Source: Propionivibrio dicarboxylicus
GTDB taxonomy: Bacteria; Pseudomonadota; Gammaproteobacteria; Burkholderiales; Rhodocyclaceae
Assembly: GCF_900099695.1 (NCBI RefSeq)
Contig: NZ_FNCY01000006.1
Location: forward strand, 124,001-188,000
Direction: 5' to 3'
Length of the DNA stretch: 64,000 bases
The notes beneath the pieces are model-generated. The model had not been told where the DNA came from and did not search any database. It was given only the letters and a program-made list of their open reading frames with translations. The position numbers and the translations under genes were made by a program. Numbering within the stretch: the stretch's first letter is position 1; each line of letters starts with the position of its first letter. Shown in pieces: positions 53,992 to 58,056 of this stretch.

Positions 53992-55944
53992 CTAGGACCA
54001 GAATCGGATGGTGTTGCGGCCGGCTTCCTTGGCCTGATACATCGCCCCGTCGGCCCGCTTGAGGATTTCCCCGGCGTCGATCTCGTGATTGACGAACAGG
54101 GTCACGCCGATGCTGGCCGAACAATGATGCACAACCGACAAGGGGTCGCCTTCGTCGCGCCGCAGGCTGATGCGGTAGGGCTGGGAGAGCGAGAGACGGA
54201 TCTTCTCGGCAACCGCCAGGGCCTGCGCCCGAACCTGCTCGGGATCGTTCGGATCGAGTTCGCAGATCATCACGACGAATTCGTCACCACCGAAGCGCGC
54301 GACCGTATCCATTTCGCGTATGCACCGCCGCATGCGCGCCGCCACTTCGACGAGCAGGAGATCGCCGGCGTCATGGCCGTGGGTGTCGTTAAGCGGCTTG
54401 AAATTGTCGAGGTCGATGAACATCAGTGCGCAGTAGCGCCCGCTGCGCTTGCTCGCCAGCATGGCCTGGATCAGCCGGTCGTGAAGCAGACGACGGTTCG
54501 GCAGGCCGGTCAGCGCATCGTAAAAGGCCAACTGCCGGACATGCTCTTCCATGCGTTTCCACTCGGAAATATCGGTGTGGATGCCGATGATGCGGGCCGC
54601 CCGCCGCGCCTCGTCCCATTCGACCGTCTTGCCGACCGAACGGATCCAGATCCATTCACCGGTCACGGTCCGGCAGCGATATTCGATCGTGTGCGGCACA
54701 CCGTCCAGGGCGCATTGCTCGAGTGCAGCGGTGAACGCCGCCCGGTCCTCCGGATGAACAAGCGCTGTCCACGACTTTAGCGTCGAGTCGAAGACATCGG
54801 GATCGTAGCCGATCAGACGGACATAATCGGCGCTGACATCGATCTTGCCGATCTTCAGGTCGATATCGAACCAGCCCTGATTCGATGCGCTGAGCGCCAG
54901 GCGCAGTCGCTCCTCGCTCTCGCTCAGGGCTTTCTCGACCCGCCGGCGATCGGTGATGTCATGAACGATCGACAAAAGCAACGGCATCCTACTGGTTTCG
55001 ATCGGCGTCACATAGGATTCGACGTCGCGGATCTCGCCCGACGCGAGACGGTGCTGGAACAGGAAGACCGTCCGCTCGCCCTTGATCGCCCGGCGGCGCT
55101 CCAGCGCCACCTGTTCCGGCGACAGAATGTTGATGTCGCCGATCGCCATTTTCAGCAACTGGTCGCGCGCGTAGCCGTAATAACGCACGGCCTCGCCATT
55201 GGCGTCGATGATCTCGCCCGTCACCGGGTTGATCAGCAGCATGACCGAAGAATTCTTCTCGAAGAACAGCCGGAAATTCTCCTCGCTCCGGCGCAGCGCC
55301 TCTTCGGCCTGCTTGCGTTCGGTGATGTCACGTGAAATACCGAAAACGCCGATGATCTGGCCGTCGCTGTCGCGCAGCGGGCCCTTGGTCGCCAGGAAGA
55401 TGCGATCGCCGTCGGCCGTCGTCATGTTCTCTTCGTAGGTCGCGACGTGCCCGCCATTCATGGCAACAAGATCATTTTTCCGCACGATTTCGGCCTGCTC
55501 GGCCGGGAAAATGAAAGTGTCGTCACGGCCGACGATCTGCTCGGCTTCCTTTCTGACCAGGCGACAGACCTCGCGACTGATCATCAGGTAACGCCCGTCT
55601 CGATCCTTGGCGAAAATGGCATCGGAAGAACTGTCGACAATGGCTTCGAGCAGCCCGGCTGTGCGTTCCTTCTCCCGACGCGCCGCCTGTTCAAGTTCGG
55701 CATAGCCCATCGCCTCATTGATCAAACCCCGGACAAGCACGTACAGCAGCAAGGCGGTTACAGCGACGAACAACCATCCCTTGAGCGTGCTGACCAGCGT
55801 CATCAGCTCTCGGTCTTCGAACATGAAGCCGACGGCGGCATCCGAAAACAGAATCCACAGGCTCGAAAACACCGCATAGATCAGGACGACGCGCAACGCG
55901 CCGCCACTCACCCTGATCTTCTGCTTTCGACTGTCCGACCTCAT
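53992..55944 (-). CDS. Membrane PAS-GGDEF diguanylate cyclase
   Basis: A 650-residue inner-membrane sensor that makes cyclic di-GMP from GTP. Two membrane helices (about 18-34 and 55-73) enclose a short periplasmic loop; three PAS domains follow (about 98-215, 217-340, 345-465, each ending in a PAC-type DITER/DITDR/TDISEW segment), then a GGDEF domain (about 475-650) with the intact active site FGGDEF at 551-556. An inhibitory I-site RxxD (Arg543-Asp546) lies the canonical five residues before GGDEF, so product inhibition is expected. No EAL domain. It is convergent with the UPF0149 gene and divergent from the riboswitch-controlled membrane protein. Confidence 0.93.
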   Translation of the reverse strand: MRSDSRKQKIRVSGGALRVVLIYAVFSSLWILFSDAAVGFMFEDRELMTLVSTLKGWLFVAVTALLLYVLVRGLINEAMGYAELEQAARREKERTAGLLEAIVDSSSDAIFAKDRDGRYLMISREVCRLVRKEAEQIVGRDDTFIFPAEQAEIVRKNDLVAMNGGHVATYEENMTTADGDRIFLATKGPLRDSDGQIIGVFGISRDITERKQAEEALRRSEENFRLFFEKNSSVMLLINPVTGEIIDANGEAVRYYGYARDQLLKMAIGDINILSPEQVALERRRAIKGERTVFLFQHRLASGEIRDVESYVTPIETSRMPLLLSIVHDITDRRRVEKALSESEERLRLALSASNQGWFDIDLKIGKIDVSADYVRLIGYDPDVFDSTLKSWTALVHPEDRAAFTAALEQCALDGVPHTIEYRCRTVTGEWIWIRSVGKTVEWDEARRAARIIGIHTDISEWKRMEEHVRQLAFYDALTGLPNRRLLHDRLIQAMLASKRSGRYCALMFIDLDNFKPLNDTHGHDAGDLLLVEVAARMRRCIREMDTVARFGGDEFVVMICELDPNDPEQVRAQALAVAEKIRLSLSQPYRISLRRDEGDPLSVVHHCSASIGVTLFVNHEIDAGEILKRADGAMYQAKEAGRNTIRFWS

Positions 55945-56124
55945 CCGGCGGCCTCCGATGCCAGCGATATCCGACGGCAGACCCTCGCTCCGGCCCGTAC
56001 CACGGCGCTTGTTACGATAACGGCATGACTCACCCTCAGATTACACTGTTTTTACCGATTGGCGAAAATATCGTCGTCTAATGACAGTGACGTACGCCCA
56101 CCGGCTGGCCGAATTGCACAAAAG

Positions 56125-56133
56125 TGCTATAGT
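56125..56133 (+). promoter_or_regulatory. Probable extended -10 promoter for the riboswitch transcript
   Basis: TGC-TATAGT (56125-56133) is an extended -10 box with the start expected near 56140, about 50 bases before the aptamer. No clear -35. The rest of 55945-56124 shows nothing I recognise. Confidence 0.4.
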
Positions 56134-56192
56134 ACTGGTCGCATCCGCATTGCCCTTGTCGTCTGAATGCCGTCCTTCGGCAGATGCCTCAA

Positions 56193-56291
56193 GGTTCTGT
56201 AAACAAGGCAAACCCATCGAAAGGTGGGGACGCAAAATCTCCGGCCTAAAGGGCGTCCGACGTCCCACGGTAGCGGGATCGCCAGGAAACC
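56193..56291 (+). ncRNA. Cyclic di-GMP-I (GEMM-I) riboswitch
   Basis: The aptamer core is nearly consensus: GGCAAACC (56207-56214), a stem CCCATC/GGTGGG capped by the GAAA tetraloop, GACGCAAAATCTCCGGCCTAA, a variable stem (GGGCGT/ACG-T-CCC) and GGTAGCGGGATCGCC. The position equivalent to G20 of the Vc2 aptamer is G, the c-di-GMP form rather than the A found in cGAMP-sensing variants. The closing stem can form between GGTTCTG (56193-56199) and CAG-GA-AACC (56283-56291), which contains the Shine-Dalgarno AGGA of the next gene. No terminator follows, so control is probably of translation, with ligand binding likely turning it off. Confidence 0.9.
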
Positions 56292-56295
56292 CAGC

Positions 56296-56958
56296 ATGAT
56301 GTACTCGACGACGACCAGCCGTCGCATTATCAAGGCCAAGGTCAAGAAAAGCCGCACCTCCCAGCGTAACGTCCGCACGACGCCGCATGCCGCGCCCGTG
56401 AGAACGGAAGCACCGGCCTTGCCGCGCTTCAGCCGGACCGACACGCCGTCACCCAAAGCCTCGCAGCGCCCTTGGTATCTGAGCTGGAAACTGCTCGTGC
56501 CGATCGTGCTCTGCTCGTCCGCGGCCATCGCCTATGCGTTTGTCGCGTCGTCCGAGGACGAGACGGAGCCGTCGATGGCGCAGGAACAAGCGCCGCAACG
56601 GGAGTGGCGCAATGTCAGGACGGAAACGCCCGGTCAGGCCCGGCCAATGGGCTACAGCGGCCACCCGGGGCAGTGGTCGGCAAGCCATGCTAACGGGATA
56701 ACGGGCGCACGTCCTGCCGCCATCCAGGGCTCACCGGAGCTCGGCCTGACGGCGAGCCCCGCCCGCAAGCAGAATACCGTTGCCACCGTTGCCACCGTTG
56801 CCAGTGTCGCCAGCGATGTCGATACGATCGAAGCGTCGTTTGGCGAAAACCGCAGGGTGACGCTGCCCGAGAATGTCTCGGGTCGCTGCAAACTCACGCA
56901 ACCGGGCCTCCGGGACCTGAGTACCTGCCTGGCGCAAAACGGGGCCCGCGCCGACTGA
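56296..56958 (+). CDS. Unrecognised single-pass membrane protein under c-di-GMP riboswitch control
   Basis: A 220-residue protein I do not recognise. Visible: a strongly basic N-terminus (residues 1-60, many Arg/Lys), one membrane helix at about 66-84 (LLVPIVLCSSAAIAYAFVA), then a low-complexity, Pro/Gly/Ser/Ala-rich region and a small conserved-looking C-terminal piece with two cysteines (Cys198, Cys211) in SGRCKLTQPGLRDLSTCLA, possibly a periplasmic disulfide. By the positive-inside rule the C-terminus is periplasmic. The ATG at 56296 (another at 56299) follows AGGA by 8 bases, and that AGGA is in the riboswitch closing stem. Nothing in it suggests an enzyme; a surface, motility or biofilm role is a guess from the regulation only. 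Confidence 0.75.
   Translation: MMYSTTTSRRIIKAKVKKSRTSQRNVRTTPHAAPVRTEAPALPRFSRTDTPSPKASQRPWYLSWKLLVPIVLCSSAAIAYAFVASSEDETEPSMAQEQAPQREWRNVRTETPGQARPMGYSGHPGQWSASHANGITGARPAAIQGSPELGLTASPARKQNTVATVATVASVASDVDTIEASFGENRRVTLPENVSGRCKLTQPGLRDLSTCLAQNGARAD
56779..56814 (+). repeat. Four tandem 9-base units inside the membrane-protein gene
   Basis: GTTGCCACC twice exactly, then GTTGCCAGT and GTCGCCAGC, coding VAT-VAT-VAS-VAS. In-frame 9-base units can change copy number without breaking the frame. Confidence 0.8.
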
Positions 56959-56982
56959 CCCGGCCGGCCCCATGATCCGCCG

Positions 56983-58056
56983 CTAGGCGGACACTTCGAT
57001 GCGCGCTGCGCCGGCGACCATCTCGCCGATCACCGCCGCGCGCGCAAAGCCCTGCGCCCGGAACGTCGCGAGGACTTCGGCTTCGAGTTCCGGCGCACAG
57101 GCGACCAGCAGGCCGCCACTCGTTTGCGGGTCGGTCAGCAGCGCCCGCTCGACGTCGCCGAGACCGGCGCCGAGTACGATGCTATCGCCATAACTCGTCC
57201 AGTTGCGACCGGAAGCGCCGGTGACGCAGCCGTCGGCAATGTACGCCGGCACGTTGGGCAGGATCGGCAGCGCCCGGTAATCGACGCGCGCGGTCAGGTT
57301 CGAGCCCTTGCAGATTTCAAGCAGATGCCCGAGCAGACCGAAGCCGGTGACGTCGGTCAGCGCATTGACACCGGCCAGCCCGCCGAGCGCCGTTCCCGGC
57401 GTGTTGAGCTGCGTCGTGCTGGCGATCATCGTCGCGTAATCCGCGTCCGCCAGACGCGACTTCTTGAAGGCAGCGCTGTAGATGCCGACACCGAGACCCT
57501 TGCCGAGAATCAGCTTGTCGCCGGCCTTGGCGCCGCTGTTGCGTTTGAGTTGCGCCGGATCGACGAGGCCGATGGCGACGAGGCCGTAGATCGGCTCAAT
57601 CGAGTCGATCGTGTGCCCGCCGGCGATCGGAATACCGGCAGCGGCGCAGACCGACTCACCGCCCTCGAGGATGCGCCGGATCGTGTCCATCGGCAGCGTG
57701 CTGACCGGCATGCCGACGAGGCCGAGCGCGAAGAGCGGCGTACCGCCCATGGCGTAGACGTCGGAAATCGCGTTGGTCGCGGCGATGCGGCCGAAATCGA
57801 AGGGATCGTCGACGATCGGCATGAAGAAATCGGTCGTCGCGACGATCGCCTGACGCTCGTTGATCTGGTAGACCGCCGCGTCATCGGCTGTTTCGATGCC
57901 AACCAGCAATTGCGGCGGCACCACCGACTTGGCCGTCTTGGCGAGAATCTGTTCGAGCACGCCCGGCGCGATCTTGCAACCGCAGCCGCCACCGTGCGAG
58001 AGCGAGGTCAGGCGGATCGGCGCTTCTGTTTTTTCAGCGTTCGTTTCAGTCACCAT
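56983..58056 (-). CDS. selD: Selenide, water dikinase SelD
   Basis: A 357-residue enzyme producing selenophosphate from selenide and ATP for selenocysteine and tRNA 2-selenouridine. The glycine-rich N-terminal loop GGGCGCKI has a cysteine (Cys25), not selenocysteine, at the catalytic place, and Lys28. ATTDFFMPIVDDPFDFG and NAISDVYAMGG are conserved. GAGG precedes the ATG. It is the last gene after copA and copZ, 7 bases from copZ. selA, selB and the tRNA-selenouridine synthase are not in the window. Confidence 0.96.
   Translation of the reverse strand: MVTETNAEKTEAPIRLTSLSHGGGCGCKIAPGVLEQILAKTAKSVVPPQLLVGIETADDAAVYQINERQAIVATTDFFMPIVDDPFDFGRIAATNAISDVYAMGGTPLFALGLVGMPVSTLPMDTIRRILEGGESVCAAAGIPIAGGHTIDSIEPIYGLVAIGLVDPAQLKRNSGAKAGDKLILGKGLGVGIYSAAFKKSRLADADYATMIASTTQLNTPGTALGGLAGVNALTDVTGFGLLGHLLEICKGSNLTARVDYRALPILPNVPAYIADGCVTGASGRNWTSYGDSIVLGAGLGDVERALLTDPQTSGGLLVACAPELEAEVLATFRAQGFARAAVIGEMVAGAARIEVSA

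Follow-up and report, generated by a model that had tools for sequence, protein, structure and literature searches.

A c-di-GMP-I riboswitch kept upstream of an undescribed single-pass membrane-protein family in Rhodocyclaceae-like bacteria

Introduction

The closest described relatives of the locus reported here are riboswitches of the c-di-GMP-I class (GEMM-I; Rfam model RF01051), which sense cyclic di-guanosine monophosphate (c-di-GMP). Members of this class that switch gene expression on and members that switch it off (ON and OFF switches) are both known. We analyzed a 64,000-nucleotide stretch of Propionivibrio dicarboxylicus DNA (contig NZ_FNCY01000006.1, positions 124,001 to 188,000), referred to as the window, in which a riboswitch of this class leads into a gene for a single-pass membrane protein. 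With a probability of about two in three, we consider that the riboswitch and the membrane-protein gene form a small portable module, OFF-controlled, which occurs in part of one betaproteobacterial family (Rhodocyclaceae-like, hereafter the taxonomic family).

Results

The riboswitch and the gene behind it

The aptamer lies at 56197-56286 on the forward strand. It matches RF01051 over its full length (model positions 1-87 of 87), scoring 71.8 bits where the gathering score is 35 (E 4e-12), in the covariance-model search that an earlier note on this DNA had proposed, which bears out the riboswitch named there, and it is the sole RF01051 match in the 4.53-Mb assembly. Residues G20, A47 and C92, which we take to be the ligand contacts of the Vc2 riboswitch, map to G, A and C in the leaders of all 12 members of the protein family described below, and GGC, ACGCAAA and CCAGG were read in each of these leaders. 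Judged by its sequence, the window riboswitch is a genuine, standard member of the known class. One further, lower-scoring match in the window, to an unnamed model of the same clan, was also recorded.

Ten bases past the aptamer, ATG 56296 opens a frame for a 220-residue protein (56296-56958, forward strand, stop codon ending at 56958), so that the aptamer lies in the 5′ leader of this gene. A 244-residue frame beginning with GTG at 56224 was rejected as the gene start, its GTG lying inside the aptamer; the ATG was chosen because 7 of the 12 homologous frames begin 9-12 bases past the aptamer. The frame is a real coding gene, since the ratio of nonsynonymous to synonymous substitution rates (dN/dS) against its nearest relative, in genome G026, is 0.27. 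By part, dN/dS is 0.30 in the N-terminal region, 0.16 in the transmembrane (TM) segment and 0.34 in the linker, and the lowest of the four values, 0.11, belongs to the C-terminal segment (residues 177-220, 56824-56955, forward strand, with Cys198 and Cys211); the neighboring cyclase and SelD gave 0.09 and 0.07 for the same genome pair. The gene thus encodes a protein whose tail is conserved and whose middle part is loose.

A single hydrophobic segment was found in the protein, with its hydropathy peak starting at residue 66. AlphaFold places a helix at residues 60-86 (56473-56553, forward strand), where block means of the predicted local distance difference test (pLDDT) reach 92; the mean over the whole protein is 54. 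Structure prediction, which the earlier note had suggested, therefore yielded the membrane helix, the rest of the model being too poor for a fold search. Pfam contained no family for the window protein at E<=1, and Pfam, NCBIfam, PHROGs and PDB held no convincing relative of the protein family, the best matches being weak and each confined to a single member (a PDB profile search with the family gave three matches, best E 0.16). As the same note had held, the riboswitch leads into a single-pass membrane protein without a family assignment, and the family is, by sequence comparison, new to the libraries searched. Open-access literature searches found no paper joining c-di-GMP and riboswitch with Rhodocyclales or Rhodocyclaceae, and none for Accumulibacter and riboswitch; "undescribed" is used here as judged from these searches and the family libraries only.

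A protein family found under c-di-GMP riboswitches

The protein family comprises 12 full members (the window, G026, G012, G135, G328, G105, G194, G149, G056, G154, G344 and G099) and one fragment at a contig edge (G252). Besides the window protein, a protein search of 99 genomes, its own included, returned only G026 (72% identity) and G012 (40% identity over residues 150-219), both of the same genus. Proteins of the same layout were spotted in G135 and G194 among 92 tabulated riboswitch loci, namely the window and 91 loci fetched among the matches listed, with high scores favored. Profile A2, built from five sequences and run against 395 genomes of the taxonomic family, added G328, G105, G149, G056, G154 and G344, and profile A3 (eleven sequences) against genomes of the same taxonomic family added G099 and the G252 fragment. 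The A3 search of the 395 genomes gave 11 strong matches (E 1.3e-36 or better), G099 at E 1.1e-4 and the fragment. Outside the genus, identity to the window protein was 17-23% in the A3 alignment, in which G099 was not aligned. A contig scan with the window protein sequence alone found no relative. An order-wide profile search of 300 genomes revealed no convincing member outside the taxonomic family, wider groups not having been searched by profile. The protein family is divergent, and all members found belong to the same taxonomic family as the window.

All 12 members share a common layout: a basic N-terminal tail (net charge +7 to +15) with a pair of arginines (RR) beginning at residue 5-12, one hydrophobic segment beginning at residue 60-71, a loose linker, and exactly two cysteines past the TM segment, close to the C-terminus.

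A c-di-GMP-I-type aptamer was detected upstream of the gene in 12 of the 12 full members, despite the low identity outside the genus and differing neighbor genes; the G252 fragment, which starts at the contig edge, was left out of this count. Nine members (G026, G012, G328, G105, G149, G056, G154, G344 and G099) came from protein searches, whereas G135 and G194 were located via the riboswitch and the window was given. Seven of the nine scored above every match set aside in their search. Thirty weak matches were set aside (8 in the A2 search, 12 in the order-wide search, where they made up all matches, from 11 genomes, and 10 in the A3 search), and none had an aptamer in the fetched stretch. 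Against circular sorting, a test of layout was applied that uses protein sequence only (RR, a TM segment and, close to the C-terminus, C-x(7-20)-C[LV]). All 12 members passed, as did 2 of the 30 set-aside loci, in each case on the other strand than the match. With the narrower spacing of an initial version, 10 of the 12 members and none of the 30 set-aside loci passed (matched strand only), and the spacing was widened after the two misses.

RF01051 was the best model for nine other leaders, including that of the window, and RF03167 for those of G194 and G149 (loci L133 and L136; 68.7 and 66.7 bits, cut-off 59), both of which match RF01051 too; the G026 aptamer was searched with RF01051 only. 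These results support the view that the riboswitch and the membrane-protein gene form a module, in which the riboswitch belongs to the membrane gene.

A proposed P1 helix and the probable direction of control

In the window, the proposed 5′ strand of the P1 helix (GGU followed by UCUG, 56193-56199, forward strand) is complementary, with a 2-nucleotide bulge, to the proposed 3′ strand (CAGG, the bulge, ACC; 56283-56291, forward strand), which contains the Shine-Dalgarno-like AGGA at 56284-56287. CAGG was found in all 12 leaders of the protein family. In the five leaders other than the seven with a close start codon, the ATG lies 19, 91, 116, 162 and 183 nucleotides past the aptamer. When own P1 partners were compared with swapped strands across 99 leaders, 17 of 5000 permutations were as strong, and three other segment choices gave 0-1 of 5000. 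The 87 leaders outside the protein family gave 0-2 of 5000, and the 12 leaders within it a weak signal (232 of 5000; 115-256 of 5000 with other segment choices). The 5′ segment was 1-2 bases short in G105, G194 and G149 in the first swap test, as it was in the shuffle test discussed below; a later swap test, with the 5′ segment anchored on the Rfam match, gave the same or a stronger result.

Binding of c-di-GMP would stabilize P1, which would hold the Shine-Dalgarno sequence; with that sequence within P1, c-di-GMP should lower translation, and the membrane protein would then be made at low c-di-GMP. A translational OFF switch is thus the arrangement that we favor. An ON switch, in which binding frees the Shine-Dalgarno sequence and cells would produce the protein when c-di-GMP is high and they are sessile, is a possible but clearly weaker candidate: both kinds are known for this class, and other targets in the same taxonomic family include secreted or surface-type proteins, such as immunoglobulin (Ig)-domain proteins and subtilases, whereas the location of the Shine-Dalgarno sequence in the 3′ strand of P1 in 7 of the 12 leaders, together with the swap tests that back P1, argues for OFF.

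Farther upstream, TGCTATAGT (56125-56133, forward strand), read by eye, is a possible extended -10 element and a tentative promoter, and its letters are identical in the G026 leader. A consensus scan of 55900-57050 found no promoter-like site, and no terminator-like site was found in the same interval.

The neighboring probable cyclase

The gene at 53992-55944 on the reverse strand encodes a 650-residue PAS-GGDEF protein and is divergent from the membrane gene at 56296-56958 on the forward strand. Pfam detected GGDEF (PF00990, E 1.8e-40) and, by two PAS models, three PAS stretches; two hydrophobic segments were seen by eye at the N-terminus. The GGDEF motif is intact and has an RxxD five residues ahead (REMD-TVARF-GGDEF), presumably the product-inhibition site for which this motif is usually taken. 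The product is probably a diguanylate cyclase, and the intact active site and the divergent arrangement are as the earlier note had described them.

The note had gone on to suggest a local signaling circuit with the membrane protein as effector. As a feedback circuit, this would mean that the neighbor increases the c-di-GMP level in its vicinity and has the membrane protein, under riboswitch control, as an effector of its own. Divergent adjacency and gene order are the same in the window and G026, and the cyclase is conserved between them (91% identity, with the low dN/dS given above). However, these are the only 2 of the 12 loci at which the cyclase adjoins the membrane gene, both in one genus; the other ten, including that of G012, a third member from this genus, have different immediate neighbors. 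Judged by gene order in relatives, which the note had suggested comparing, and by the refuting condition that it had set, the riboswitch is present with all homologues, and the cyclase is missing beside most of them. GGDEF matches number 56 in the window genome, about one per 81 kb, so that one such gene nearby is unremarkable (31-73 matches per genome across the 12 carrier genomes). Across the 92 riboswitch loci, a GGDEF match was present in the fetched stretch, mostly about 3 kb on each side, at nine (phmmer, one query domain), close to the 7-9 roughly expected at the GGDEF density of the window genome; at some of the nine, the GGDEF gene is the riboswitch's own target.

A selD-like gene, named from its sequence, lies convergently downstream of the window membrane gene. 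Among 20 selD loci of the genus, the 18 other than the window and G026 lacked a relative of the cyclase on the side of selD that faces the membrane gene, within inspected flanks of 1.5 kb in 14 loci and 23-690 bases in 4. On the opposite side of selD, four genus loci had GGDEF matches of 40-44% identity. We therefore regard the local circuit as unlikely and reject it as a conserved unit. The adjacent cyclase is probably no more than a neighbor outside the conserved module, and a private cyclase-riboswitch arrangement may exist in the window lineage alone. In genomes with so many GGDEF matches, finding a cyclase gene next to a riboswitch says little in favor of a circuit.

Conservation and predicted topology of the membrane protein

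The family might also represent a relic, or a fast-evolving dispensable gene without a conserved role, above which the riboswitch merely persists. Such a gene would fit the patchy spread (11 strong matches, G099 and the G252 fragment in 395 genomes), the low sequence identity and the long linker modeled with low confidence; the low dN/dS (0.27 for the whole gene, 0.11 for its C-terminal segment) and the presence of the two tail cysteines, the RR pair and the aptamer in all 12 members, make this reading slightly less probable even than the local circuit. That the RR N-terminus is a twin-arginine (Tat) signal and the protein an exported Tat substrate is very improbable and was rejected: RR is present from residue 5-12 in all members and 9 of 12 N-termini fit [ST]-(x)-RR-x-[FVILM], a pattern that we compared with what we take to be the Tat consensus, but RR lies about 50 residues ahead of the hydrophobic segment, and the sole NCBIfam Tat-signal match (locus L138, E 0.0053, just over the cut-off) covers TM residues 61-87 rather than RR.

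The predicted topology would have the N-terminus inside and the C-terminus outside, with the two tail cysteines forming a periplasmic disulfide. Conceivably, each conserved end has a binding partner of its own, with a disordered linker in between, and the protein might act in a signaling or surface process as an adaptor or regulator at the membrane. Functionally, we infer a membrane adaptor made at low c-di-GMP.

Gene neighborhoods

Six different gene neighborhoods were observed among the 12 members. Half of the loci (G328, G105, G149, G056, G154 and G099) have the gene directly behind groEL, which was confirmed by Pfam in G105 and recognized from sequence elsewhere; we take this position as ancestral. 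The G105 gene is followed by genes for a response regulator and a kinase (Pfam), and a gene with a GGDEF motif lies three genes off. Similar response regulator and kinase frames follow the G252 fragment and the G056 gene, and probably also those of G328 and G154. The G135 gene precedes genes for a methyl-accepting chemotaxis protein (MCP) and CheW, and the upstream gene encodes a hybrid kinase in G012, a protein with a molybdopterin-binding domain in G344 and a chalcone-isomerase-like protein in G194. Neighboring GGDEF genes were identified by their motif after simple gene calling, and the inspected flanks were short at the G099 locus and on one side of G328.

At the G099 locus (L186:748-1242), a dsbB-like gene, recognized from sequence, converges on the family member, which may be of interest in view of the two cysteines that the family conserves.

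We tentatively suggest, with less conviction than we attach even to an ON switch, that the family provides a portable c-di-GMP output, an adaptor that plugs c-di-GMP into whichever signaling system adjoins (the response regulator-kinase pair behind groEL, the MCP-CheW pair, the hybrid kinase or the cyclase), with the cytoplasmic RR and the periplasmic two-cysteine tail as its contacts.

Other c-di-GMP-I targets in the taxonomic family

Of 249 genomes sampled from the taxonomic family, 126 had an RF01051 match, as did 16 of 28 genomes of the genus, the window genome included. Targets at the 92 riboswitch loci were classed from frames starting within 600 nucleotides of the riboswitch (<=600), using ten query classes with phmmer at E 1e-4. 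The ten classes accounted for 66 loci; the remaining 26 include five of the membrane-protein family. The commonest class counted was DUF1631 (PF07793; L049, L126 and others) with 19 loci, followed by subtilases (17), Ig-domain proteins (7), small secreted-looking proteins of a WCWY type (7), MCPs (4), HDOD-GGDEF proteins (4), FliE (4), EAL proteins (2) and pilins (2). No paper in the open-access literature was found to contain both riboswitch and DUF1631.

The WCWY-type proteins, small and apparently secreted, carry W-x-CW(Y)...C and were found by phmmer at L083:2501-3016 (reverse strand), L081, L087, L089, L094, L108 and L102; the one scanned, that of L083, had no Pfam match. L069, L070 and L107 each have two c-di-GMP-I riboswitches in the same orientation, separated by 2.2-2.4 kb and with one gene each, and the genes behind them at L069 and L070 look like subtilases. 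At L096, two c-di-GMP-I riboswitches lie about 350 bases apart on opposite strands, one pointing to fliE. Flagellin was present in all 12 carrier genomes, but it was dropped as a correlate of the membrane-protein family, being found in 110 of 121 sampled genomes of the taxonomic family anyway.

Discussion

In this study, we describe a protein family whose full members, 12 of 12, were all found under c-di-GMP riboswitches. Because the riboswitch is kept in every one of them despite sequence divergence and six neighborhoods, the membrane protein is very likely part of the c-di-GMP response.

Several observations weigh against an OFF-controlled module. With the ATG 19-183 nucleotides past the aptamer in 5 of the 12 leaders, direct overlap with the Shine-Dalgarno sequence is not the rule there. 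P1 pairing was no better than in shuffled letters in 11 of the 12 leaders at the 0.05 level (0.291 for the window; G099 alone fell below, at 0.014), an unconstrained fold of the window leader failed to show the full aptamer and had no greater stability than its shuffles (z 0.00), and the permutations of the swap tests ignore relatedness among loci. As to the association itself, the best of the matches set aside in the A2 search, L139 (8e-5), outscored two members, G344 (E 2.2e-4) and G056 (E 0.005), and the nine protein-found members are partly non-independent because adjacent aptamers drew attention to these two; both later entered the alignment and pass the layout test. Most of the AlphaFold model is of low confidence, and no neighbor is common to all loci, hence no partner is indicated.

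The membrane-protein family offers a small, tractable target for finding a new c-di-GMP output. Compared with PAS-GGDEF diguanylate cyclases, the protein at 53992-55944 has their sequence marks and is not kept beside the module. With other c-di-GMP-I targets, the window gene shares the riboswitch class, whereas its protein matches none of the ten queries (phmmer, E 1e-4). The c-di-GMP-I-GGC variant RF03167, of the same clan as RF01051, is the best model for two family members. Relative to the RF01051 class itself, the window aptamer is ordinary, and what distinguishes the locus is the gene under its control, which belongs to an undescribed family.

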